Source: Chitinophaga pinensis DSM 2588
GTDB lineage: Bacteria; Bacteroidota; Bacteroidia; Chitinophagales; Chitinophagaceae
Direction: 5' to 3'
Assembly: GCF_000024005.1 (NCBI RefSeq)
Contig: NC_013132.1
Coordinates: forward strand, 6,628,001 to 6,692,000
Length of the DNA: 64,000 nt
The translations under genes and the position numbers were made by a program. Within the stretch, counting starts at the first letter, position 1. The number at the start of each line of letters is the position of its first letter. The notes beneath the pieces are model-generated. The model searched no databases, was not told where the DNA came from, and was given only the letters and a program-made list of their open reading frames with translations. Positions 30,435 through 46,889 of the stretch are shown piece by piece.

Positions 30435-32264
30435 CTAATTCCCCTCCAGCGGCACCGTAAACATATTACTCACTCTACCTCCTGGTGTTACAATAATATA
30501 ATTCAACACCATCGGCTTCTCACTTTTCCCTTTCACCGGCAGCAATATCGCCCCGTTGTACAGGTTAGCAGTCTGATCTGCCTTATGCCCGTCAACAGTA
30601 TAATACACGTTGCTGTTCGCTACAAAAGGAATAATCTCCGCAGTTCTCCTGCCAGCTGCATCTGCGCCAAAAGTCACCTTTGCCTCCGGAATACGATAGT
30701 ACACCTTCATCTGCTCCAGCTCCTGCAAACGTAAAGGCAGACGCGCAGTAGAGAAGTCCTCATAATTCCGCTGCCCCTTCGCTGACCATGCCACCTCTGA
30801 CAATGCCAGCATACGCGGGAACAGCATATATTCCAGTTTATTATTGGTACCGATATACTCTGTCCAGAGGTTTGCCTGTACACCCAGTACATGCTGCTGC
30901 TGATCGGGCGTCAGCGAATCAGGACGTGGATTGTAGCTGTACACTCTCTCTAACGGCAGGAAACCGCCAATAGCCGTCGGCTCATTCTGTTTATCTTTAG
31001 ACTGATAATGGTCGATATACAAGTGGCTGTTAGGCGTCATAATCACATCATGGCCCATTCTCGCAGCTGCGATACCGCCTTTCTCCCCTCTCCAGCTCAT
31101 GACAGTCGCATTAGGCGCTAATCCACCTTCCAGGATCTCGTCCCATCCTACCAGGCGTCTGCCATTCTTATTCAGGAACTTCTCGATACGGGAAATAAAA
31201 TAGCTCTGTAACTCATGCTCGTCTTTCAGCTTCTGTTTCGCAATCAGGGTCTGTGCAAATTTAGACTCCTGCCAGTGCTCCTTCGGTACTTCGTCGCCAC
31301 CTACATGGATGTACTCACCCGGGAAGATCGCCATGACTTCAGTCAGCACATCCTCCAGGAATTTAAAAGTCTCTTCCTTCGGACAATAGATCGCATAATG
31401 TACGCCCCAGTAACCTGGCACATGATACAGGGTATCTTTACAACCAAACTGCGGATAAGCAGCCAATACCGCAGTACTGTGGCCTGGCAATTCGATCTCC
31501 GGCAGAATCGTGATCTTACGGTCAGCAGCATATTTCACCAGCTCACGCGCCTCTTCCTGTGAATAATAACCGCCGTGTTTCACGCCGTCATACACGAATG
31601 GTTTATAATCGCCATACTGTCTCAGAATACTGGAATCACGCCAGGCGGATACCTGGGTCAGTTTCGGGTACTTTTTGATCTCCAGTCTCCAGCCCTGGTC
31701 ATCGGTCAGGTGCCAATGCAGTCTGTTGAATTTAAAATAAGCCAGGAGATCCACGATCTTCTTCATTTCATCCAGGGAGAAGAAATGTCTTGCTACGTCG
31801 ATCATCACACCACGGTAACCAAATTCCGGTTTGTCACTAACAGTAACTGCCGGTACACTGAGTCCGCCGTCTTGTGTTTCGATCAGCTGCAATACCGATT
31901 GCAGCCCATAAAAACAACCTGCGCTGCCACCCTTGATGGTGATTTTCTCAGGTGTCACAGTCAGACTATAAGCCTCCTGCGCGCCGGCATCTGCCTGGTC
32001 GTCCAGTACGATCGCCTTCCCGCTGGCCTCACGGGCGATGGTCAGTTTGATACCATAACGGTTCCAGAGAAATTCATTGAACAGATCCGCATTCTTTCTT
32101 GCGGCATCGCTTGCTGCCACCAGTACGGTCTGTTTACCTAATGCAAAATGTCCGGTCGCAGCCTGTACAGAAACAGGTTTCGGGATGATGGAGTAGTTGC
32201 TTTGTGCATGAGCGCCACTCACTCCCAGAGAAAAGACTAAAATAGATGCAATTCTTTTTAACAT
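30435..32264 (-). CDS. Secreted beta-N-acetylhexosaminidase, GH20
   Basis: 609 aa with a signal peptide (MLKRIASILVFSLGVSGAHAQ). The small GH20b domain covers about 22-150 (YSIIPKPVSVQ), and the catalytic barrel starts at FGYRGVMIDVARHF. The catalytic pair is in HVGGDEVPK, with Asp324 and Glu325. Further family motifs are FNRLHWHLTDDQGWR, ILPEIELPGHS and GWDEILEGG. It removes terminal GlcNAc or GalNAc from chitobiose or glycans in the periplasm or at the surface. The gene stands alone with its own terminator. It fits a chitin-degrading lifestyle; substrate choice cannot be read from sequence. Confidence 0.95.
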   Translation of the reverse strand: MLKRIASILVFSLGVSGAHAQSNYSIIPKPVSVQAATGHFALGKQTVLVAASDAARKNADLFNEFLWNRYGIKLTIAREASGKAIVLDDQADAGAQEAYSLTVTPEKITIKGGSAGCFYGLQSVLQLIETQDGGLSVPAVTVSDKPEFGYRGVMIDVARHFFSLDEMKKIVDLLAYFKFNRLHWHLTDDQGWRLEIKKYPKLTQVSAWRDSSILRQYGDYKPFVYDGVKHGGYYSQEEARELVKYAADRKITILPEIELPGHSTAVLAAYPQFGCKDTLYHVPGYWGVHYAIYCPKEETFKFLEDVLTEVMAIFPGEYIHVGGDEVPKEHWQESKFAQTLIAKQKLKDEHELQSYFISRIEKFLNKNGRRLVGWDEILEGGLAPNATVMSWRGEKGGIAAARMGHDVIMTPNSHLYIDHYQSKDKQNEPTAIGGFLPLERVYSYNPRPDSLTPDQQQHVLGVQANLWTEYIGTNNKLEYMLFPRMLALSEVAWSAKGQRNYEDFSTARLPLRLQELEQMKVYYRIPEAKVTFGADAAGRRTAEIIPFVANSNVYYTVDGHKADQTANLYNGAILLPVKGKSEKPMVLNYIIVTPGGRVSNMFTVPLEGN

Positions 32265-32585: not shown

Positions 32586-34658
32586 ATGTCAAGAATAGCG
32601 CTATTGGCGTATGCCAACGACATGAAAGAAGAACCGCTACATTATGTCGAACAGGAGATAAAAGAGATCAACACGTACTTCGGAAACATCAAAAAGCACT
32701 TAAATCCGGATATCCTCATAAGTGCGACTAAAGATGACCTTTTCCGTTACTTCGCTGACCACGGCCCCGATATCGAGATAATGCACTTTTCAGGACACGG
32801 CAACAGCCTCGCCCTCTTCTTCACAAAAGACGGCGCCTTCAGAAAAGAAGGTCTCGCAGCACTCATGGCTTTCGCCCCTAATCTCAAACTCGTATTCCTC
32901 AACGCCTGTGCTTCCAGAGAGATCATAGACGTACTGCATACGCCCGATCCGGCTAATCCTCAGAAAGGTGTCCCCATCGTCATCGGTACCCAACGTCCCG
33001 TGTACGATAAAGTAGCCAGCGACTTCTCTATCTACTTTTACACCGCCCTGACAAAGTCATGGCCTATCGGAAAAGCCTTCGACTTTGCCAAGACCTTCGT
33101 CCTTTCCGGCGAACACTTTGCACTGTTCCCCAAAGGGCCGAATCGTTATATCGGGACTAAACGCGCCGCCGTCATGGACGATGATCCTGATGACGAAACA
33201 AGTCCTCAGGAATTCCCCTGGGGCATCTATTACAAAGAATCGCTGACGGATGACTGGTCCATCACCCAGTACCTCAACGAAAAATATGACGACAAGGAGA
33301 AATATGCACCCAATGATGAACTGATCCGCGCCCTCGCTGCCAATGCCAGCCGCCTCTACGCCAATCTGGCTAAAGAAAGGGACGCACTCATTGCCACCCT
33401 CTACGACAAGTCAGACCTCTCCGCAAAAGAAGTGCTCATTGAAGTCGAAAACATCAACGATAAATTCAATCGCCGCAATAGTCAGCTAAAAGAGATCAAT
33501 GACCTCTACGCCGCCTATATACAGGATCCGCAAAGCCTGAGCGACATCGCCGATAAACTGATCAATACCTTCCCGCTGCCACTGGGTAAACTCCTGCAGC
33601 GGATGTACTCTTTCAGTAAAGAAAACCTCCTCACAGAAGAAGATTACGCCGAGTTTCTTGACCTGCAGATCAACTTCTATGAGATATTGGTAAAACTTGC
33701 CGCCGCCACCATCCTCTCCGACCTGCTGGAAGTATACGGCATGAAAGAGAAGATCGGGAAAATACTCGCATTTAATCCGATCCAGAAGGAGATCATCTTA
33801 AATTACTTCCGCCAGACCAAAGACAACGAACAGGACTTTGACTACACCTCCTTTATTGAGGTCATCAGCCAGGTATTAAAAGAAAACCTGAAAGATGAGC
33901 CGGATATCGCTCCCTTCGTCAAAGAATACCTGCACTTTGAAAGCATTAACACCTATGAGAATAACTTCTTTAATTCTCACATGGTGATCAAAGGCATCAA
34001 AGCCAAACTCCCTACGCTCAATACAACCGCCGCCTATATTCATCACTGCAGGGAAATAGAACTGGGATTGATCAATCTCCTGAAAGAACTGTTCTTTATC
34101 CTGCAATACAAGATGGTCGTTATTAAAAACGTAGAAGCCATCCGCAAAAGGAATGTACTCGCAAAGACCTACTTCCATAAATACATGCTGCTGGAACAAC
34201 GCATCTCCGACAGGATGGAAGTAATGGAGCTGCAATCCCTCCCGGAATATGCGGAATCCTATTCCGTGATCCTCGTCAAAGAAATCTACCGGATGTTCGA
34301 ATACCTTTCCCTGTCCCCTTTCCTGATCGACAAAAACGTACAGTGTGAGTTTGACGGGGTAGACCTCTATTTCTACAACTACACCGAAGGGAATGGCATC
34401 GTCTATAAAAGCCTGACCAACAACGAAAGACTGATCCACATCCAGCCGGAAACACAGGATATAGAACTGGGCGCCGCCACCATTACCAAAACCACCCTGC
34501 GCTTTATCGAGGATATGGCCATTAAAACAGACCGGGAAAAGAACAGGATCACCAACCGCCTGTTGCAATTACATGCCGAATTCGCCTACTACCGGTCCAA
34601 GATTGCCGCCACGCCGGTCACTATACAAAATGCCACGCCCATAAATAGCCAGCCATGA
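32586..34658 (+). CDS. CHAT-domain (caspase-like) protease, first gene of a CHAT/nSTAND operon
   Basis: 690 aa, no signal peptide. Residues 1-200 form a CHAT peptidase: catalytic His71 in HFSGHG and Cys108 in LNACAS, followed by GVPIVIGTQRPVYD and a SIYFYTAL helix, the usual order in clan CD proteases. Residues 240-690 are helical and not recognised; they may bind the partner or a substrate. The stop overlaps the start of the next gene by 4 bp (ATGA), so the two are almost certainly made together. CHAT proteases paired with STAND NTPases occur in bacterial conflict and regulated-death systems, where the ATPase senses a trigger and the protease executes. This role is inferred. Confidence 0.85.
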   Translation: MSRIALLAYANDMKEEPLHYVEQEIKEINTYFGNIKKHLNPDILISATKDDLFRYFADHGPDIEIMHFSGHGNSLALFFTKDGAFRKEGLAALMAFAPNLKLVFLNACASREIIDVLHTPDPANPQKGVPIVIGTQRPVYDKVASDFSIYFYTALTKSWPIGKAFDFAKTFVLSGEHFALFPKGPNRYIGTKRAAVMDDDPDDETSPQEFPWGIYYKESLTDDWSITQYLNEKYDDKEKYAPNDELIRALAANASRLYANLAKERDALIATLYDKSDLSAKEVLIEVENINDKFNRRNSQLKEINDLYAAYIQDPQSLSDIADKLINTFPLPLGKLLQRMYSFSKENLLTEEDYAEFLDLQINFYEILVKLAAATILSDLLEVYGMKEKIGKILAFNPIQKEIILNYFRQTKDNEQDFDYTSFIEVISQVLKENLKDEPDIAPFVKEYLHFESINTYENNFFNSHMVIKGIKAKLPTLNTTAAYIHHCREIELGLINLLKELFFILQYKMVVIKNVEAIRKRNVLAKTYFHKYMLLEQRISDRMEVMELQSLPEYAESYSVILVKEIYRMFEYLSLSPFLIDKNVQCEFDGVDLYFYNYTEGNGIVYKSLTNNERLIHIQPETQDIELGAATITKTTLRFIEDMAIKTDREKNRITNRLLQLHAEFAYYRSKIAATPVTIQNATPINSQP

Positions 34659-37600
34659 TGAAACTGATGGAAAATCCCTTCAAACTGCTGGAATCCTACA
34701 CAAAGGAAGACAAGGATATCTGGGGTGGCCGGTCCGCAGAAATAGAACACCTGTACAACCTCTCTTTTGCCGCCAACCTCATATTGGTATATGGCATGTC
34801 AGGGGTCGGTAAAACCAGCCTTATTCAATGCGGATTAGCCAATAAGTTCAGACGCACCGACTGGCACGCCGTCTGGATCACCCGGAAAGAAGACCTCAAT
34901 AAAAGCCTGACAGGAACACTCTCCCAGGAAGCCGGAGATAGCCCGTCTGCGCCCCCCTCTCCGGTACCTGAAATCATCCGCCGGGTCTATCTGAAGCATT
35001 TTAAGCCCATATTCCTCGTTTTTGATCAATTGGAGGAATTGTTCATCTTCGGCTCAAACGGCGAAATTCAGGCATTCATAGGCACTATAAAGGAGATTCT
35101 GAGCAGTGACATACAGTGTAAGATCATCCTGGTCGTACGGGAAGAATACCACGGCCATCTCAAAATATTACAGGATGCCGGCCTGCCCGTCTTTAAAGCC
35201 TCCGTCAAAATAGAACCCATGAGTATTCCGGAGGCGACAGAAGCCGTCTCCAAACTCCTGGATAAATACAATATTCAGACGCCCGATGCCGATCACCGGT
35301 CCTGTGCGGCTAAAATAGCGACCGACTGCTCCATCGACAGTCGTGTAGACCTGGCCAATCTCCAGGTTTACCTCTTCTGGGCATGGGAAAAAGCCGCCGA
35401 AAAAGCACCGCCCGACGCAGATATCGCCTTCACTCATAACATCCTCCGGGAAATCGGGGATGGCAGAAATGTCCTCACGCGCTACCTGAACGCCGTCGTT
35501 GAACGGGTATCCAAAGGAAAAACAGGTGGTGTGTGGTTCCTGCTACAGCACTTTGTGTCCCGCTCCCAGACCAAACAGCCCCTGCGCCTCGCAGAATTGC
35601 AGGATATCGACCAGCAGACCGCCCGCATGTGGCTCAACGAACTGAGTAAAAGCAAACTGGTGAAATGTGGCCGGGAAACTGACAATGAAGTCTACAACCT
35701 GACACACGATAGCCTCGTCCCCCTGATCATACTGAAGAAAACCGCCGCTTCCAGGGGCCGGAATATCCACCCCAGCGTAAAGGGGAATCCCTTCAAAGGA
35801 CTCCCCGCCTACGAAGAAAAAGACGCCACGATCTTCTTCGGCCGCAGTCTTATTCTCCGCGAACTGCTCACCTTCTTCGAAGACAAACGCCTGCTCGTCA
35901 TCGTCGGCCCCTCCGGCTCAGGTAAGTCCTCCATCATCAAGGCCGGTATTATTCCCGCTCTGAAAACAGAAGGTTACACCGTCATCCATGGTGAACCCGG
36001 CACTCATCCCATGGTCTTTGGACGGGAAATACAACGACGGCTGACAGACCTCAACGGGGGCAGATCGCTCATATACATCGACCAGTTCGAAGAACTCAGC
36101 ACACAAGCCAGTACACAGGAAAGCGAAGAGTTCATCCGCCTGCTCAATGATGTCCAGAACAACGCAGATCCCGCCCTCCGGCAACTGAAAATCATCCTCA
36201 GCGTCCGCGCTGATTATGAATATGAATTCGAAAGAGCCCTCGGCGGCTGGCGGGAGGCTAAAAAGACAATTCCCGACCTGATGGAAAGCGCCGTCAGAGA
36301 GATCATTACCGAACCGGCTTATCTCGCCGGACTGGAATACAAACCGACCTATCTCGTTGACAATATCGTACGCGATGTGATGCAGTCCAACGGCACACTT
36401 CCCCTGCTCTCCTATGCATTGGAACAGATGTATATCGAGTATGAAAAAAGCGGCGTCAATGACGGCTTCCTCACAGAAGACCATTACAATGCCATCGGCG
36501 GTGTTGTAGACGGATTACGGCTCCGGGCCTCCAAACTATACAGCTATTCTGATCCGGAAACCCAGCATACGATCAAAAACGTCATGCTTCGTATGCTCTC
36601 CCTCAGTATCAATGAGAAAGCCTCCAAGAGAATACTGGCGGAAGACCTGGTATATGAAAGTCCGGTAGAAAACGAACGTGTACAGAAAGTACTCAACGAA
36701 CTGGTCAACAGCCGCCTGATCGTATCCGGTCCGGACGAAAACGGCCAGATCTACTACGAACCAGCCCACGATTCCCTGATCCGCTCCTGGAACCTGATCG
36801 GCGACTGGATCAAACAATATGGGAAAGACCTGCTCTACCTGCAACAGGACCTCTCTGATGCCGTCAAACAGTTCAGACTCAACCCCAAAAAGCTATGGCA
36901 TGACGACCCGAAATTGAATACCCTGCTGAATATCATGAAGTCGCCCGACAACTGGTTAAACAGACAGGAAACCAATTTCGTGAAGAAAAGTCTGCAGCGC
37001 AGAAACGAACTGGAAGACAGAAAGAAAAGACGCGAACAGGAACTGGTGGAAGAAAAAATCAGTCGCCAGGAAGCAGTCGCCAAACTGAGTACGGAAAAGG
37101 AAAAAAGAGAGAAAGAACTGCTGGAAGAAAAGCTGAGCAAACAGGAAGCCATCGCTAAACTCAACAGTGAAAAAGAAGCCGTTCTCCTGGAAAAACTCAA
37201 AGGAGAAAAAGCAAAGACCCGGCTGCAAAAACAAAGAACCATCCTGCTGGCACTGGGACTCATTTCCCTGCTGATAGCCGCCAGTTACGTCTATAGTCAG
37301 TGGAATAAATCAGAGAAATCTGTATTGCAGATAAAAGAACTGAACCACCGTTTGCAAAGCTCCGCCGATGATCTCACAAAACTCAACCAGTCGCTGAACG
37401 TCATCGCAGAAAAAGCCAGACAAAGCGCAGTAGAAGCCAATATCGCCAGACAAAAAGCGGATTCCGCTGCCAGCAAAGAAAAGAAAGCGCGTACCATTGT
37501 TGAAAAACAAAAGAAGGAACTGCTGATCAAACAGAATGCACTGATATCATCACAGGAAGAAGTAAAAAGATATTCCCTGTCGTTACAGGCGAAGGCAGAC

Positions 37601-38956
37601 TCATTACGTACTTATTCAGACTCGCTGAAAACACAGCTCGTCATCATCCAGAATAAAACCAGGGAAGTTGAACATGCAAAACTGACAGCGGCCTATCTCA
37701 CGAAATCCCGCTCCCTCATGCATTCAGATCCTGCTATGGCTTATCAGCTGGCGCTTGAATCTTTGAAATACGACAGCGGTAACCAGAAGATCAAAAACTA
37801 TATTCACGATACCCTGAACAACCGCAATACCTTCTACGAATCTTTTATTGTTGATAATGTCTCTTCCGCCTTCTTTGCTGATAATGGAAAAACAGTGCTC
37901 GCGATACAGGGAGATAATAAATTCAGGCTACTGGATCTATCCAATCATAAAGATACCAGCATCGTCATCAATGGAAAGATTCTCTCTGCACAATTCAGTC
38001 CGGTGGACAATAGTGCATTGATCGCTACCCGCAACAATATCTTTAGTTACAACGCCAACGGCGGACTGAGAGCCACTTCTGAAAGAATGGAAAATGTAGT
38101 AAAAGCCATGTATACCGCCAGAGGCAGGATCATTGTCGTCACGCCGGCAGAAGTACAGATCCGGAAAAATGTTAACGCTACAACAGCAGTAGTGATCCCT
38201 TCGGGGAATAATGGCGATGATACAGAAGTCAGCTCCAATGATTCCTTATTATACATCAGAAAGAATGACGTTATTGAAGCGTATGACCTGACTAACGGCA
38301 GACTGATACGCACTTACCAGGAACCAAACAGTTTCCTGGCCAAAGGAGGTAACGGCTTCATCGCAGTGTCCGGAAAAAGACTGCTGCTGGCGAGAAGTGC
38401 AGGCAATAAAGTCCTGACGGAAAGATACTTTGTACCACTGGAAAAAGACTATTCCAGGGTCTCTATTGTCAGCATCGCGGATAATCTGCGTACCCTGCTC
38501 TTTATGGCGGAACCGGCCGAACAGCAACAGATGCAACAACAGCAACAGGTACAGCAACAACAGATCAGTAAAAACTTTATCAGGCCACAGCTGACTAATC
38601 CGCCAATATTATATGCATTCAGTCTGCCGAAGAGCAGCAGAAAATTACCCGGTAATATTCCTTATGCCAGACGTGTCGTACTGTCTGAAAACGGGAACTA
38701 TATCATTACAGGTGAAAGCGGATCTCTGTCCATATATGATAACAACGGGTACCGTGTAGAGAATTTCGGGGGTTATGCAAACTATACCATCTGGGCCTTC
38801 AACCCGGTCAATACAGATATGATCATGAGCATGAATGGCGTCAAACTCAAACTATGGCTAAAAGGTACGCCGGATGCACTCTCCGCACAAAGAAAATTGA
38901 GAACATTCAGCTCCGCCGAACTGGAAAAAGCATTGGAAGATATTGCTATCCGATAA
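34655..38956 (+). CDS. Membrane-anchored protein with two tandem nSTAND NTPase modules, coiled coils and propeller-like C-terminus
   Basis: 1433 aa. Two STAND modules lie in series, each starting with an NPFK-L-x-x-Y...GR motif (residues 7 and 378). Module 1 has Walker A GMSGVGKTS at 47-55 and Walker B FLVFDQLEE at 120-128. Module 2 has Walker A GPSGSGKSS at 418-426 and Walker B IYIDQFEE with Asp476. Each ends in a winged-helix-like part with THDSL or AHDSL. A charged coiled coil (about 770-858), one transmembrane segment (about 862-882) and a second coiled coil (about 890-1010) follow. The C-terminal 420 residues are repetitive beta, WD40- or propeller-like, with a Gln-rich insert near 1288-1303. 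Probable sensor and ATP switch for the upstream CHAT protease. The two modules are about 371 residues apart, suggesting internal duplication. Confidence 0.85.
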   Translation: MMKLMENPFKLLESYTKEDKDIWGGRSAEIEHLYNLSFAANLILVYGMSGVGKTSLIQCGLANKFRRTDWHAVWITRKEDLNKSLTGTLSQEAGDSPSAPPSPVPEIIRRVYLKHFKPIFLVFDQLEELFIFGSNGEIQAFIGTIKEILSSDIQCKIILVVREEYHGHLKILQDAGLPVFKASVKIEPMSIPEATEAVSKLLDKYNIQTPDADHRSCAAKIATDCSIDSRVDLANLQVYLFWAWEKAAEKAPPDADIAFTHNILREIGDGRNVLTRYLNAVVERVSKGKTGGVWFLLQHFVSRSQTKQPLRLAELQDIDQQTARMWLNELSKSKLVKCGRETDNEVYNLTHDSLVPLIILKKTAASRGRNIHPSVKGNPFKGLPAYEEKDATIFFGRSLILRELLTFFEDKRLLVIVGPSGSGKSSIIKAGIIPALKTEGYTVIHGEPGTHPMVFGREIQRRLTDLNGGRSLIYIDQFEELSTQASTQESEEFIRLLNDVQNNADPALRQLKIILSVRADYEYEFERALGGWREAKKTIPDLMESAVREIITEPAYLAGLEYKPTYLVDNIVRDVMQSNGTLPLLSYALEQMYIEYEKSGVNDGFLTEDHYNAIGGVVDGLRLRASKLYSYSDPETQHTIKNVMLRMLSLSINEKASKRILAEDLVYESPVENERVQKVLNELVNSRLIVSGPDENGQIYYEPAHDSLIRSWNLIGDWIKQYGKDLLYLQQDLSDAVKQFRLNPKKLWHDDPKLNTLLNIMKSPDNWLNRQETNFVKKSLQRRNELEDRKKRREQELVEEKISRQEAVAKLSTEKEKREKELLEEKLSKQEAIAKLNSEKEAVLLEKLKGEKAKTRLQKQRTILLALGLISLLIAASYVYSQWNKSEKSVLQIKELNHRLQSSADDLTKLNQSLNVIAEKARQSAVEANIARQKADSAASKEKKARTIVEKQKKELLIKQNALISSQEEVKRYSLSLQAKADSLRTYSDSLKTQLVIIQNKTREVEHAKLTAAYLTKSRSLMHSDPAMAYQLALESLKYDSGNQKIKNYIHDTLNNRNTFYESFIVDNVSSAFFADNGKTVLAIQGDNKFRLLDLSNHKDTSIVINGKILSAQFSPVDNSALIATRNNIFSYNANGGLRATSERMENVVKAMYTARGRIIVVTPAEVQIRKNVNATTAVVIPSGNNGDDTEVSSNDSLLYIRKNDVIEAYDLTNGRLIRTYQEPNSFLAKGGNGFIAVSGKRLLLARSAGNKVLTERYFVPLEKDYSRVSIVSIADNLRTLLFMAEPAEQQQMQQQQQVQQQQISKNFIRPQLTNPPILYAFSLPKSSRKLPGNIPYARRVVLSENGNYIITGESGSLSIYDNNGYRVENFGGYANYTIWAFNPVNTDMIMSMNGVKLKLWLKGTPDALSAQRKLRTFSSAELEKALEDIAIR

Positions 38957-39006: not shown

Positions 39007-39987
39007 TCAATCAGGGAATGCATACGTTTCGGCAATCCATGTAAAGCCTTCGTCTTTCTTTTTCACATGTCCGATACCGGGCCATGGCAGGTGATAAGAA
39101 AATACCTTCGTCCGGTCTTTCGTCAGGGATTCCAGCACCTTTCTACGCGTAGCTGCTGCCAGTGTAAAATCAGTATCGCCATCAAAGCCCCACTCCGGAT
39201 GGGGGAATAACAATACATCTGAATGTATCAGATCAGCGATATGTACGATCTCCTCATTGCCGGAGAATACCCGTACCAATGTGTGTCCTGGTGTATGACC
39301 CGGCGCTGCCTGCAAACGCACACAACCAAATAAAGTTTCCTCGTAACCAAAGAAATGAAGGCGGTCTTTCAGGGCAGTTAAGGTCTGCTTGGTAGCGACC
39401 AGTATTTTTGCCAGCAAGGCTTTATTTCCAAATTTACTTTTAGAGAAATCCGGATAATCTGACATCCAGAAACGATGCTCCGTCTCTGACATATACACCT
39501 GTGCCTGCGGGAAGACAAGTTGCCCGTCCTGGCTGAACAGTCCGCCGATATGATCCGGATGCGCATGTGTAATCACAATCTGTGTTACTGCATTCACATC
39601 CATACCCGCGTCTTTTAATGACTGTGGCAGCCAACCGCAATCAGGGCCGAATCCGAAGCCAGCACCGGTATCTATCAGTATCACTTCTTTGTCTTTCTTG
39701 ATCAGCAGCATATTCATACCCAGATCGACGGCCTTCGTAGAACGAAAGCTGCCTTCTAACAGTTTTGTTACTTCTGCCGCAGGTACGTCCTGTGCAAAAT
39801 GGTCCTGCACAGGGCTCATGACAATATGCCCGTCAGTAACAACTGTCATTTCCAGATCGCCCAGCTGAAAACGGTGATAAGGTCGCTCGCTTGCTGTTTT
39901 GAGGGAACGGGCCAGCAGCTTGTGTACAGGTAATGTAGCGCCAAGGCCAAGAATAGCTATTCTCTTTATGAGGGTTCTTCTTTCCAT
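39007..39987 (-). CDS. Metallo-beta-lactamase-fold hydrolase with Tat-type signal
   Basis: 326 aa from the ATG at 39987 (MERRTLIKRIAILGLGATLP), preferred over an in-frame TTG two codons upstream. The twin-arginine start and hydrophobic stretch suggest Tat export. The zinc motif is THAHPDHIGG (about residue 125), with further ligands in APGHTPGHT and HIADLIHSD. The family includes lactonases such as N-acylhomoserine lactonases and detoxifying hydrolases; the substrate cannot be told. It is divergent from an HxlR regulator across a 29-bp palindrome, so expression is probably induced by a small molecule sensed by that regulator. Confidence 0.85.
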   Translation of the reverse strand: MERRTLIKRIAILGLGATLPVHKLLARSLKTASERPYHRFQLGDLEMTVVTDGHIVMSPVQDHFAQDVPAAEVTKLLEGSFRSTKAVDLGMNMLLIKKDKEVILIDTGAGFGFGPDCGWLPQSLKDAGMDVNAVTQIVITHAHPDHIGGLFSQDGQLVFPQAQVYMSETEHRFWMSDYPDFSKSKFGNKALLAKILVATKQTLTALKDRLHFFGYEETLFGCVRLQAAPGHTPGHTLVRVFSGNEEIVHIADLIHSDVLLFPHPEWGFDGDTDFTLAAATRRKVLESLTKDRTKVFSYHLPWPGIGHVKKKDEGFTWIAETYAFPD

Positions 39988-40003
39988 CTTCAAATATTTA
40001 GGT

Positions 40004-42051: not shown

Positions 42052-43755
42052 TTAATGCTTAACACCTATGTTTTGCAGCACAAACGCCTGTACCAATGCT
42101 GCCGGCACTGCCAATGTAACCGTTCTGGAGTGTCGGGCGATATTGATACCCGCCAATACACCTGCTGTCGTAAACACCGGCCCTCCGCATTGCTCCGGCC
42201 GGAGTATGGCATCATGTGCAATTACTGATTGAAAACCATCTCTACGCTCGCTTTTACCACCGCGGAACAGATCTGTAGCATGTGTTGCCGGCAACTGCGG
42301 ACGTTTTGCCAGTACAATCGTGTCATTCACTTCAGCCACCTGGTGAACTTTACCCGCTACGCCATCTGTCCCCTCTGCTACCGCATGTAGCCGTCTCTTT
42401 ATGATAACCGTATCACCCGGCCAGTAAGCAGACAATTCCCGGCCATAATCCATCGGCTCATTCACAGCAACACCATTAATACTGATGATTTCATCGCCGG
42501 GAGTAGCCCCTTTTGCATCCGCCGGAGATCCCGGCATCACATAGGTCAGTACTAAAGGTTGCTTGTCAGGAGCGATTGCCGCACCCAGAAAACCAAGGCT
42601 GCTCATTTTCGGCAGACTGAATGTATCCTTTCCAAATACACTGGCAATCGCCAGGGTATCCGGTTGCGGAGATAACAGGAATACACCGCGGCCAATAGCA
42701 ACCGGACCGTTTACCGGAAATGCAATACCTCCTTTTACATGTGCATCCAGCCCTAACAAAACCAGGTCATTTTCCTTGTCACGGGCAATGATCCGGGTCT
42801 TTATACTTTTACCATTATATAAAACAAGCGGCTCCTGTGCCACCTCGCTGTTCTTACTCACAACAAAAGATTGTCCCTTTACATCGATCAGCAGACCATT
42901 GATGCTACGCTGCTGGTTCCCGGCCACGCTTTCCACCTGTACACTGGCCATTTTATTCAGCTTATTCGTCTTCATGGTCAGTCTCAGGCTTTCCAGCTGA
43001 TCATGACTGCTGATCAGTCCTTCCGACGGATCTGTATTGATACTATCCCTTATCTCCGGGTATTTTAAATAATGTACCGGCTGCAACAATGCGGCCCAGT
43101 ATTTACGATACAGATCAACTGGTACATCATAGTTCTTCTTTTCATCCGGTTCTATCGCGCTTCTCAAACCAATAACCCGTCCAAGGTAGTCAAACAGCGG
43201 TCCCCCGGAATCTCCAGGTTCCATCATACAGGTCGACTCAATAAAGCCTTTCTCATTCTTTACGCGGGTAATATGTCCGGCCGTCATCATAGGCAGGGGC
43301 TGATTCAGACTCTCCGGATAAGCGATACTGAAACAGGGCTCATTTTCCTTCAGATCATAAGACCAACCCATCGGCGCAACAGGCCAGTCGCCCGGTGTAA
43401 GGATCTTCATCATCGCCACATCCGGCAGCTCCGGTGTTTCCGGAAAATTGATTTTACCCAGGGCCATTGCGATGGCGGCCCTTCCGTCTGTAAAAGTTAC
43501 CATATAAGTATTACCGGGTACCGTCGTATGGGCGACCGTCAGTATATGCCCCTCTTTTGTAACCACAACACCGCTGAACGTAGCGCTCATCTGCTGGTGG
43601 GTAGTGGTGTCATAGGTCCACATACGTACATAAGCAGGCGGAAGTTGTGTACTGATAGTCTGTAATGCAGATGGTTGAAACGCTGCAGGGCGCTGGCAAT
43701 AGGTATTCCCTGCTATCAGGAGCAGGAAAAGGATTAATAGTTGGTTTTTTCTCAT
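42052..43755 (-). CDS. Secreted double trypsin-fold protease with PDZ domain
   Basis: 567 aa with signal peptide (MRKNQLLILFLLLIAGNTYC). The first HtrA/trypsin-like domain has a complete triad: His76 (LTVAHT), Asp112 (PDVAMM) and Ser183 (EPGDSGGPLFD). A second similar fold starts near residue 285 (FVVSKNSEVA, DKENDLVLLGL) and contains a PDZ domain at about 390-450 (MPGSPADAKGATPGDEIISINGV). Near its end the expected GDSGGP reads EQCGGPVF, so Ser is replaced by Cys, and the His position is not conserved. The second half is probably a pseudo-protease or substrate-sensing module. Envelope quality control is a likely role. It is divergent from an M48 protease gene. Confidence 0.85.
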   Translation of the reverse strand: MRKNQLLILFLLLIAGNTYCQRPAAFQPSALQTISTQLPPAYVRMWTYDTTTHQQMSATFSGVVVTKEGHILTVAHTTVPGNTYMVTFTDGRAAIAMALGKINFPETPELPDVAMMKILTPGDWPVAPMGWSYDLKENEPCFSIAYPESLNQPLPMMTAGHITRVKNEKGFIESTCMMEPGDSGGPLFDYLGRVIGLRSAIEPDEKKNYDVPVDLYRKYWAALLQPVHYLKYPEIRDSINTDPSEGLISSHDQLESLRLTMKTNKLNKMASVQVESVAGNQQRSINGLLIDVKGQSFVVSKNSEVAQEPLVLYNGKSIKTRIIARDKENDLVLLGLDAHVKGGIAFPVNGPVAIGRGVFLLSPQPDTLAIASVFGKDTFSLPKMSSLGFLGAAIAPDKQPLVLTYVMPGSPADAKGATPGDEIISINGVAVNEPMDYGRELSAYWPGDTVIIKRRLHAVAEGTDGVAGKVHQVAEVNDTIVLAKRPQLPATHATDLFRGGKSERRDGFQSVIAHDAILRPEQCGGPVFTTAGVLAGINIARHSRTVTLAVPAALVQAFVLQNIGVKH

Positions 43756-43923
43756 TTTCTAACCCGGATCTTGGAAGCCGGAAAACTAAAGATAATCTAC
43801 CAATCGCAGGTTTTTATATCTCCCGCAGGGAAAAGCACAGTCACCTTACAATGAAAAGCTTAGATATATATTTAAAATAATTATCTTGCAATCATTATCC
43901 GGAATAAGAAGGACAAAACAAGC

Positions 43924-45396
43924 ATGAGACCTATACCAAAGTATGTATCCCTGCTGCTGTTACTGCTCGTTGTAACCAGTCAGGCAGCCCAAAGTCAGCA
44001 AAATGAGCTTTATAGTTACCAGGACCTCTCCCACCTCTTTTACCAGAAGCAGAAGGACTCTCTGCAGAAAGCATGGACCTGCCCTGCCAATTACAAAGAC
44101 AAGGAAACACAGAAGAAATACAGGGAGATCTGGGACGGACGCACCGAGTTTTTCACCGGCGCTATCAAATCCGATAACTATATCTATGACAAAGACGTAT
44201 ACACCTACGTATACAGTATTATCACAGAAATCTGCAAAGGCAATAAAAGCTATCTGCCTGCACAGCCTTTCCTGGTGCTGGACAGAAGTCCGTCTATCAA
44301 CGCCTATGCAGTAGGTAATAATGTGATCGCTGTCAACCTCGGCCTGATCCAGTTTGCCAGAACAAAGGAGGAAATTGCCCTGACACTCGCACACGAACTG
44401 TCGCACAACATCCTCCTGCACGCAGAAAACAGTATGAAGAAACGTGCGGAATGGCTGACTTCCAGCGAATATAAACAGTCGATGGATGAAGTGCTCGACT
44501 CCAAATATGGCAGACTGACACGCCTGAAAAAGGTATTCGAAAACTACTCCTTTGACAGAAGCCGTCACCAACGTTATCATGAAGGAGACGCAGACTCCCT
44601 CGCCGTTGTCCTGCTCAAAAACGCCAATATAGCCTTTGACCCGAACGTGTTCCTCCGTCTGGATACCTCAGACATGTTGTATCACCAGCCGCTGAAACAA
44701 CCGGTAAAAAACTATTTTGCCGCTTATGGTGTAAACATAGAGGACGCATGGCTGAAGAAACGCTCTAAAGGTCTTTCCACCAGGACTTATAACTTCCAGG
44801 AAAACGTAACCTTGCAGGATTCCCTGAAAACGCACCCTGACTGTGTGGACAGGTATAATAAGACGAAAGTGGCTGCCACCATGCCGGTGCCACAAACGCC
44901 GATCCCCGCGATCGTGAAGGAGAAAGCCAATAAAATGCTGATATGGAACATGTATTGTAACATGAACCTGGCACCCTGCCTCTATCGCGTACTGATGGCC
45001 AAAGACAACGGTAATACCGATCCATGGTACGATTTCATGATCCATAATATCATGCTGGAATTGTTCCATGCCGACAATGAACTCCATCGCTTTGCCGCTA
45101 TCGGGGTAACGCAGAAGGAATATATCTCTAAAGACTTCTACGAACTGCAGACAATGCTGGAACAGATCCCGCGTGAAGAACTGGGTAAAAGCTGCCAGCA
45201 ACTGCAAAGCGCCGGTTTCTGGAGCAAAATGCAGGCCCAGGAGCAAGGCTTCAAAACATTGATGCAGAGCATTGCACTCAACAAAGAGAGCGATGACGCC
45301 AACAAAACAAAAGCCGCTAAATCCTTTACGGAAAAATATACCAGCAGTCCGTATGGTGAATATGCAGACGACCTGAAGAAAGATACAAGGAAGTAA
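43924..45396 (+). CDS. Secreted M48-family metalloprotease
   Basis: 490 aa. Signal peptide (VSLLLLLLVVTSQAAQSQ). Catalytic motif LAHELSHNILLH at about residue 157, with the third ligand region EGDADSLAVVLL about 60 residues later. Preceding sequence INAYAVGNNVIAVNLGLIQ is the standard M48 strand. The C-terminal 200 residues are helical and charged and lack TPR repeats. It is a soluble or envelope-attached peptidase (BepA/LoiP-like fold), probably degrading damaged envelope proteins. The next gene starts 17 bp downstream, so the two form an operon. Confidence 0.88.
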   Translation: MRPIPKYVSLLLLLLVVTSQAAQSQQNELYSYQDLSHLFYQKQKDSLQKAWTCPANYKDKETQKKYREIWDGRTEFFTGAIKSDNYIYDKDVYTYVYSIITEICKGNKSYLPAQPFLVLDRSPSINAYAVGNNVIAVNLGLIQFARTKEEIALTLAHELSHNILLHAENSMKKRAEWLTSSEYKQSMDEVLDSKYGRLTRLKKVFENYSFDRSRHQRYHEGDADSLAVVLLKNANIAFDPNVFLRLDTSDMLYHQPLKQPVKNYFAAYGVNIEDAWLKKRSKGLSTRTYNFQENVTLQDSLKTHPDCVDRYNKTKVAATMPVPQTPIPAIVKEKANKMLIWNMYCNMNLAPCLYRVLMAKDNGNTDPWYDFMIHNIMLELFHADNELHRFAAIGVTQKEYISKDFYELQTMLEQIPREELGKSCQQLQSAGFWSKMQAQEQGFKTLMQSIALNKESDDANKTKAAKSFTEKYTSSPYGEYADDLKKDTRK

Positions 45397-45413
45397 TTGG
45401 TCTGAATCTTATT

Positions 45414-46889
45414 ATGATGAAAAAATTCTTCCTCTTTATACTCACTCTTTCTCCCTTGCTACTGAAGGCGCAGACAAAAGTCTTCAAGGAAGTAAATGAA
45501 GGAATCTCTACGGAATTCAAGCCCATTTTTCAGAATGGGAACCTTATCGGCTACCTTGCTTTCTCAGAACTGGAACGGGCCAATAAAGACTCTTTCAGTT
45601 ACAGGATCAATATCATGGATGAAAACCTGAACGATCTGGGAATAGTAAATTTCAGGGAGAAAAAACTGGACCTGCAACAGGTATCTTTTGTAAATGATAC
45701 CCTCTGCATGGCTTACCTGAAAAGCAATGTACTGGGTTATGACTGGGGCAGCAGAAACGAAAGAAATGACTCCCTGTCAAAAGGCTATCTGTCCCTGTTC
45801 GCACAGTTTATCAGTCTGGATGGCAAAATAGCCCACACTTTCGAGAAAAAGCTGAAAACTGATATCCGCCTGTCATGGACAAATATCCGTGACGGCAGGA
45901 TCGGTAACGGCGGACTTAAACATAGTGTCCAACTCAAAAATCAGGATCAGAAAGGATTTACCTTTTTCTTTGGCGATGATGCATATAACTATCTGCTTGT
46001 CATAACGACACAGGGAGAATTACTCTGGGAAAAATACATTCTTGAAGACGGTGATCATTATAAAATGCTGACCTCCGGAAGGGATGTACTGTTTCTTATT
46101 ACGGCAGAACGCAACATGGCAGTAAGTAGTCATACCGTTATCTCTTATGATACAGATAAAAAAGCGGGTATCCTGAAGCTCCCTTTGCTGGACCAGTTCC
46201 GCAATCCGTTGCTGGTGATGGCATTCAATAATGACCCTGCTACCGGTAAGCCCTATCTGGCCGGCTATATTCATGATCCGATGGCAGCCGGTGCTTATCT
46301 GTACACCAAGAACGTTGTGCAACACCTGTTCTCAGGTATTTTTGTTATCAACGTGGACGGACATGAAAAAACGGCCGTGAAACGACAGTTCAGCTACTGG
46401 ACCGACAAGGTCGATGACGAACTGGTAGAGAATGATTTTCTGTCCAATAATAATGCGTTTATGAAAAACGTCATTGCCTTCAGGGATTTCCAGGGTAACA
46501 CGTATATCACAGGGACCAATAATTACCACAGATCCGAGTATGGTAGTGTCGTAATGCTCAAACAGGATCCAAGTGGCAAACTGTCGGTCCTGACCCCCTT
46601 CGCTGATGCGGATATAGATCTCAGTGATACAAGAAAGCAATATGAGCTTACCGGTATGCCGCCATTATATTCGGTATCTTCATCTGACACCAGGTCCACT
46701 TACCTGATCGTCAATGCCCAGGTAAATTCGAGCATTTACAGCCTGGAGAAAAAGAAGGTGGTCCGCGTCATTCCGCATAAGGATGGTAACATACGTACGA
46801 ACATCTACCCGGCCAAAGAAGGACACGTCATCGTTGCGGAATACAACAGAAAAGAGAAATACACAAAACTCTCTATCGAAGCGATCTAA
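45414..46889 (+). CDS. Secreted protein of unknown function downstream of M48 protease
   Basis: 491 aa with signal peptide (MKKFFLFILTLSPLLLKAQ). The mature part is made of beta strands with repeated short blocks such as GFTFFFGDDAYNYLLVI, GELLWEKYILEDGDHYKML, VFVINVDG and GNTYITGTNN, consistent with a beta-propeller. No catalytic motif seen. The tight spacing to the M48 gene suggests a partner or substrate-presenting protein. A strong terminator follows. Confidence 0.65.
   Translation: MMKKFFLFILTLSPLLLKAQTKVFKEVNEGISTEFKPIFQNGNLIGYLAFSELERANKDSFSYRINIMDENLNDLGIVNFREKKLDLQQVSFVNDTLCMAYLKSNVLGYDWGSRNERNDSLSKGYLSLFAQFISLDGKIAHTFEKKLKTDIRLSWTNIRDGRIGNGGLKHSVQLKNQDQKGFTFFFGDDAYNYLLVITTQGELLWEKYILEDGDHYKMLTSGRDVLFLITAERNMAVSSHTVISYDTDKKAGILKLPLLDQFRNPLLVMAFNNDPATGKPYLAGYIHDPMAAGAYLYTKNVVQHLFSGIFVINVDGHEKTAVKRQFSYWTDKVDDELVENDFLSNNNAFMKNVIAFRDFQGNTYITGTNNYHRSEYGSVVMLKQDPSGKLSVLTPFADADIDLSDTRKQYELTGMPPLYSVSSSDTRSTYLIVNAQVNSSIYSLEKKKVVRVIPHKDGNIRTNIYPAKEGHVIVAEYNRKEKYTKLSIEAI

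Follow-up and report, generated by a model that had tools for sequence, protein, structure and literature searches.

A CHAT protease paired with a membrane-anchored double-STAND protein in Chitinophaga pinensis: a candidate envelope-sensing receptor-protease module

What might a caspase-like protease be doing in a gene pair with a membrane-anchored STAND NTPase? The question is raised by two overlapping genes in a 64,000-nucleotide stretch of Chitinophaga pinensis DSM 2588 (NC_013132.1, positions 6,628,001 to 6,692,000; the whole stretch is called the window here), which belongs to a genome of 9,127,347 bases in a single contig. The genes encode a CHAT protease and a protein with two STAND modules (Table 1). 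Both open reading frames lie exactly where an earlier note, made from the sequence alone, had placed them, and they share 4 bp, an overlap that points to translational coupling. On balance, we favour the reading that the pair forms a two-gene receptor-protease module, in which an NLR-like switch that senses the envelope turns on an initiator protease, and this in turn acts on cell-wall-damaging caspases; such a unit may work like an animal cell-death receptor. Chance or artefactual frames are ruled out by full-length homologues: 13 close CHAT homologues are 77-97% identical, and the STAND copies of seven named loci 64-95% (L and G handles denote loci and genomes of the comparison), the STAND frame of L002 being split in two. 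The GC content of the two genes (0.475 and 0.484) is close to that of the window (0.473), so that base composition gives no signal of horizontal transfer.

We surveyed the neighbourhoods of proteases that carry both the CHAT domain and the C-terminal domain described below, choosing them by the protease and not by the partner. This gave 56 distinct loci in 50 genomes once four repeats of loci already counted (L137, L139, L140 and L141) had been dropped; the fetched surroundings are a selection of best hits and cover ~8-10 kb on each side, some stretches ending at contig ends. In all 56 loci an nSTAND1 gene lies directly 3' of the protease on the same strand, and the seven named close loci, all from Chitinophaga records, keep the pair in the same order. 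The earlier note had regarded a lack of co-occurrence in other genomes as fatal to its reading; the survey finds the reverse. A profile from a 12-row alignment detects the protease family, at E <= 1e-15, in 33 of the 79 Chitinophaga genomes, in 65 of the 396 from the order and in 6 of the 395 sampled across the phylum, some of these matches spanning the CHAT part only; searching the protein database with the wide alignment brought in just two proteins more. At two empty sites (G667 and G1059) the hexosaminidase-like and metallo-beta-lactamase-fold (MBL) genes that flank the pair in C. pinensis are direct neighbours, separated by ~350 and ~610 bp, and on either side the sequence aligns to that of filled loci. 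The CHAT-STAND pair is thus a discrete unit, present or absent as one. G006 carries other genes at the module site, and in G330 a close copy of the flanking gene could not be located.

Several related arrangements were seen alongside. Nine CHAT-only proteins, which lack the C-terminal domain, have no nSTAND1 gene directly following. Two of these (L125:5062-9333 and L131:6625-11106) carry CHAT and STAND in one chain with weak propeller matches, a hydrophobic helix being found in L125 and not in L131. At L134:6431-9224 and L135:8057-10926, the gene that comes after a CHAT protein without the C-terminal domain encodes another kind of P-loop protein (335-348 residues), possibly a parallel pair; at L105:7834-18714, one genome carries two consecutive CHAT-STAND modules, which differ in subtype and are separated by a single gene. 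Genome-wide in C. pinensis, the window gene is the single CHAT match, and two of the three nSTAND1 matches lie at this locus; the third nSTAND1 gene (L144:7178-10306; genome 3465177-3468305) stands in a row with three uncharacterised genes encoding 348-392 residues, and no CHAT match was found near it.

The protease matches PF12770 over residues 13-178 at 45.1 bits, against a cut-off of 24. The His71 and Cys108 assigned earlier as its catalytic dyad lie in the contexts HFSGHGN and FLNACAS and are invariant in all 32 aligned family members (a selection from 57 known pairs; 11 columns are invariant overall), so the loss of catalytic residues among homologues that the earlier note had allowed for is not what these proteins present. 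The dyad pattern fits 55 of the 56 loci, the exception, L095, reading GH and NGC by eye. After the CHAT domain, the profile check found a conserved region of ~450 residues with no consistent Pfam family among the 32 members scanned: beyond CHAT and C25, four Pfam families matched, each in one or two of the 32 and at E 0.014 or worse. The solved-structure search gave a clear match only for the CHAT part (8tl0), and no solved structure matched the STAND protein at E 0.01. We also considered, and rejected, a domain that the CHAT C-terminus would have in common with STAND, caspase or subtilase proteins, as no match was found.

The partner matches PF20703 nSTAND1 in two stretches (355.8 bits, E 5.6e-106) with P-loops at residues 47 and 418, in agreement with the two STAND modules in one 1433-residue chain that had been proposed. 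Each module of the window-type copies has its Walker A, Walker B and HDSL motif, the Walker motifs being invariant in a 13-row alignment; in the distant double-STAND proteins L096, L101, L122 and L128, the motif pattern located the first Walker B only. The modules are followed by a transmembrane helix, which the earlier note had set between long coiled coils and taken as a membrane anchor. The hydrophobic helix and its flanking charge bear out the anchor, and the segment behind it has the 3.5-residue period of a coiled coil, but the heptad signal of the stretch before it (residues 780-861) is weak; that stretch is probably helical and is predicted to be cytoplasmic. Topology was judged from hydropathy and charge. 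The 15 residues preceding the helix hold seven lysines or arginines and the following 15 hold three, with means of 6.0 and 3.3 over 43 STAND rows (four loci counted twice), and because of this asymmetry the STAND modules are predicted to lie inside and the propeller in the periplasm. The propeller-like C-terminus proposed earlier is likewise supported: the last 390 residues match the WD40 genes of relatives (hhalign 99.2%, E 2.6e-19), and in profile comparison the C-termini of single-STAND partners match the window propeller (91.4%, E 9e-7).

The tandem STAND arrangement, described in the earlier note as unusual, holds for the window-type copies but is one of several partner architectures, which run from STAND alone (~350 residues) through STAND-helix (~580-790) and STAND-helix-propeller (~1010-1100) to double STAND-helix-propeller (~1405-1440). 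Seven of the eight STAND-only loci have a nearby gene with an HD-motif start, a hydrophobic helix and a WD40 or other C-terminus. In a tree of 64 STAND modules (midpoint rooting only; S_L126 and S_L144 dropped by the motif filter), module 1 of the double proteins groups with the single-STAND partners (98/98), a group that includes one SUMF1-type protein, P0065, and module 2 sits apart from these, in a clade shared with other nSTAND1 proteins (100/100), which rules out a recent tandem duplication. The second STAND of L109 and L121 belongs to yet another nSTAND1 lineage (100/99). Because these lineages differ, the double-STAND protein is, as far as the tree indicates, a fusion of two different switches, and acquisition of a second STAND probably happened on at least two occasions. 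The protease tree (46 rows, near-duplicates out, with several long rows whose placement is unsure) splits the nine proteases with window-kind double-STAND partners from the other 37 (99/96), which is consistent with joint inheritance of CHAT and partner.

A role for the pair in anti-phage defence is plausible, phage stress being a candidate trigger and killing the putative outcome. A dedicated abortive-infection system, in which the propeller or a STAND module would recognise a phage component and the protease would kill the infected cell, overlaps the receptor-protease reading: it would work like NLR-type defence, and it would suit both a module that is missing as a unit from two relatives and the occurrence of single, split and double STAND architectures. 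We nevertheless consider it rather unlikely. Among PADLOC models no family matches the protease and the partner draws P-loop models only, with no Avs match; a BovA match is weak and found in 3 of 32 protease relatives (best E 1e-4), the window protein having none; a TIR-STING gene that neighbours the module also occurs at an empty site; and the known phage-sensing STAND proteins sense in the cytoplasm, whereas the sensor here is predicted to lie outside.

What the protease might act upon is suggested by a second association. In 27 of the 56 loci the fetched stretch contains a caspase (C14) gene, and every one of the 16 single-STAND Chitinophaga loci is among them; the profile used for detection came from five domains of neighbours at four of the loci and so is not independent of those four. 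The caspase gene is divergent and 132-312 bp from CHAT in 14 of the 16; in L095 it precedes CHAT on the same strand at a distance of 26 bp, and in L086 it is 2 kb away. Since single-STAND Chitinophaga genomes hold only 1-7 C14 genes (up to 22 in the order's other families), adjacency by chance is unlikely; the loci do share ancestry. The only C14 match of the whole G1055 genome is presumably the gene that precedes CHAT by 26 bp, where a caspase match was seen. Among distant relatives, an amidase-caspase gene overlaps the CHAT start in L124, and an amidase-caspase-GDSL gene lies directly behind the STAND gene in L120. As an observation in its own right, a caspase-subtilase gene (L083:2270-4870, ~867 residues; Pfam run on L083 only) has relatives in 12 other loci, near caspase genes and the CHAT-STAND pair.

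The C. pinensis genome has six C14 matches, none inside the window, and encodes an amidase-caspase-GDSL protein at 3441362-3445306, in which SGHGT and FDCCHSG were read by eye; against NCBIfam caspase_w_EACC1 this protein scores 47.5 bits, below the cut-off of 140. It is matched at E <= 1e-30 in 23 of 79 Chitinophaga genomes and is full-length, with at least 52% identity, in 16, the G1074 copy being in pieces. Of the 15 genomes with a double-STAND module, 12 have a full-length copy, as against 4 of the 64 others (Fisher p 1.4e-8, in a test that ignores shared ancestry and counts G1099, whose partner was not fetched, among the 64), and in the remaining three of the 15 (G1052, G1082 and G1088) a caspase gene lies beside the module. 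Caspase-family proteins are likely to be downstream targets of the protease, none of them adjacent to the pair in C. pinensis.

Under the receptor-protease reading, the propeller and coiled coil would sense an envelope-side signal in the periplasm, as the charge around the helix suggests, and the signal would cross the single membrane helix to the two cytoplasmic STAND NTPases, which, if they behave like others of their family, would exchange nucleotide and oligomerise. The oligomer would activate the CHAT protease bound to it, probably by way of the protease's conserved C-terminal domain, and the protease would serve as an initiator cleaving caspase-family executioners encoded nearby in many relatives or elsewhere in C. 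pinensis. The executioner would then attack either the wall or the membrane, with death or lysis of the cell as the outcome. A fuller version, in which a periplasmic propeller receptor and a two-stage STAND switch drive the CHAT initiator and, through it, an executioner caspase with amidase and GDSL esterase in one chain, would amount to an extrinsic death pathway; we advance it tentatively, as possible but rather less likely than not.

A number of findings weigh against the receptor-protease reading, besides the shared ancestry behind the Fisher comparison. The helix is absent at the threshold used in 11 STAND rows, one of them a fragment. No caspase gene was found in the fetched stretches of the eight window-type loci, nor in those of 29 of the 56 loci overall, some of which are cut by contig ends; the amidase-caspase protein occurs without the module in four genomes (G667, G330, G1059 and G006); this protein has no hydrophobic stretch by which its amidase would reach the wall; and the protease C-terminal domain shows no match to caspase proteins in profile comparison. 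The 29 loci with no caspase gene nearby would also fit a non-lethal alternative, in which the same anatomy would serve as an envelope stress receptor whose CHAT protease cleaves a regulator. We judge such regulated proteolysis unlikely: the caspase, subtilase and amidase domains in the neighbours of relatives point to destructive outputs, and an accessory distribution, in 33 of 79 Chitinophaga genomes, would be unusual for housekeeping control.

The surroundings of the pair suggest a further alternative. An extracellular contractile injection system (eCIS) cluster occupies window positions 1-29576 on the minus strand, with tape measure, baseplate J, VgrG-like, tube, sheath, Pvc16 and CBM5_12/S74 fibre genes, and the module might lyse the cell in order to release these particles, much as LypABC lyses Caulobacter to free gene transfer agents, a precedent described in PMC13236601. 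In all nine window-type genomes, CHAT does share its contig with a tape-measure gene at a distance of 29-48 kb. Such genes, however, are present in 74 of 79 Chitinophaga genomes, with or without the module; CHAT and eCIS are ~2.9 Mb or more apart in G376, G1052, G1075, G1067 and G645 and 117 kb apart in G1065; and G1059 has the eCIS beside an empty site. The linkage looks like inherited synteny, and programmed lysis for eCIS release is to our minds the least probable of the explanations considered.

Closer to the pair, the hexosaminidase-like gene lies 5' in all seven named loci and adjoins the MBL gene at two empty sites, and the MBL gene is directly 3' in four of the seven (L002, L004, L007 and L008). 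Further 3', window positions 42052-46889 hold trypsin-PDZ, M48 peptidase and DUF6770 genes; the trypsin-PDZ gene (42052-43755), on the opposite strand and ~3 kb away, also stands beside two empty sites (L156 and L157). The TIR-STING gene (L004:17871-18965), next to a 900-residue TrkA_N protein (Pfam run on L004 only), has relatives in L005, L006, L008 and L156; it is found beside the module in four genomes, but since it is also present at an empty site, its position does not speak for a linkage to the module.

Table 1. Features of the CHAT-STAND pair and its direct flanks, in window coordinates
Feature	Position	Strand	Basis
CHAT protease gene, 690 aa	32586..34658	+	Open reading frame; PF12770 E 1.1e-11
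CHAT (caspase-like) domain, residues 13-178	32622..33119	+	PF12770
Codons of H71 and C108	32796-32798; 32907-32909	+	Dyad within CHAT domain
Conserved protease C-terminal domain, residues 235-690, LSLSPF motif	33288..34655	+	Family alignment
4-bp gene overlap	34655..34658	+	Gap -4 also in window-type loci L002-L008, L137-L141
Double-STAND membrane protein gene, 1433 aa	34655..38956	+	Open reading frame; nSTAND1 profile
nSTAND1 module 1, P-loop residue 47	34661..35749	+	Pfam, motifs, tree
nSTAND1 module 2, P-loop residue 418	35762..36994	+	Pfam, motifs, tree
Highly charged, proline-free stretch, residues 780-861	36992..37237	+	Composition; little heptad signal
Transmembrane helix, residues 862-880	37238..37294	+	Sole hydrophobic segment of partner
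Coiled coil, residues 881-1010, predicted periplasmic	37295..37684	+	Period 3.5
WD40-like beta-propeller, residues 1040-1433, predicted periplasmic sensor	37772..38953	+	hhalign
Hexosaminidase-like gene, left flank, 609 aa, divergent	30435..32264	-	Named from sequence, no Pfam run
Metallo-beta-lactamase-fold protein (MBL), right flank	39007..39993	-	Pfam, locus comparison

If the receptor-protease reading is true, the pair would give bacteria an analogue of death-receptor signalling, with a STAND sensor outside the membrane, strict pairing with a caspase-like protease and an association with caspase-amidase proteins; initiator-executioner cascades of bacterial caspases would become testable, and the conserved protease C-terminal domain without a family would gain a first role. 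The constant CHAT-STAND pairing also yields clear genetic predictions. To our knowledge, the characterised bacterial NLR-like systems, phage-sensing STAND proteins included, sense inside the cell. Judged by title and abstract opening, no paper on the CHAT-STAND pair was found, in a search that left most subscription papers and bioRxiv outside.

How, then, does the pair compare with known systems? The Avs and bNACHT defence proteins combine a STAND switch with a C-terminal sensor, as in the window partner. The pair differs from those proteins in that its effector is encoded by a gene of its own, that there are two STAND modules and that the sensor lies beyond a membrane helix; the protease is not part of one chain with the switch, and PADLOC gave no Avs match. 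Craspase, the TPR-CHAT (Csx29) system of CRISPR type III-E, likewise has a CHAT protease switched on by a partner, which there is an RNA-guided nuclease; no TPR match was found in the protease, nor did any of the 29 scanned window proteins match a Cas family.

By score and dyad the protease belongs to the CHAT proteases PF12770, and by Walker A and B motifs the partner belongs to the nSTAND1 NTPases PF20703, a clade named in PMC8195603. An envelope-side sensing role for proteins of this kind is an earlier proposal, since PMC10907252 predicts that one target has its NACHT and lectin domains in the periplasm. The EACC1-caspase systems (PMC7159879) are also membrane-associated two-gene units with a caspase-superfamily protease, but there a 5' single-transmembrane EACC1 gene precedes a 3' caspase fused to variable domains, whereas here CHAT is 5' and STAND-helix-propeller 3', and the 5' neighbour of the pair is the divergent 609-residue hexosaminidase-like gene, not a single-transmembrane EACC1 gene. 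Borvo (BovA), a CHAT defence system listed in PMC10952713, has the CHAT domain in common with the pair, and the window protein does not match the BovA model. EACC1-caspase, Craspase and Borvo each have single elements in common with the CHAT-STAND pair. The likeness to CARD-NLR and LypABC goes further: as described in PMC13236601, a protease gene is coupled to an NLR-like STAND switch, and peptidase activity is required for lysis. The protease there is trypsin-like with a CARD, as opposed to CHAT plus an unassigned C-terminal domain here, and the effector is a gasdermin or nuclease, as opposed to the caspase proteins that are the likely targets here; the word 'transmembrane' does not occur in the text of that paper (PMC13236601). 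Our Pfam scan of the protease found no trypsin or CARD family, and general scans found no gasdermin among 29 window proteins, no gasdermin-directed search having been made. The CHAT-STAND pair, then, works like CARD-NLR and LypABC but is no member of either.

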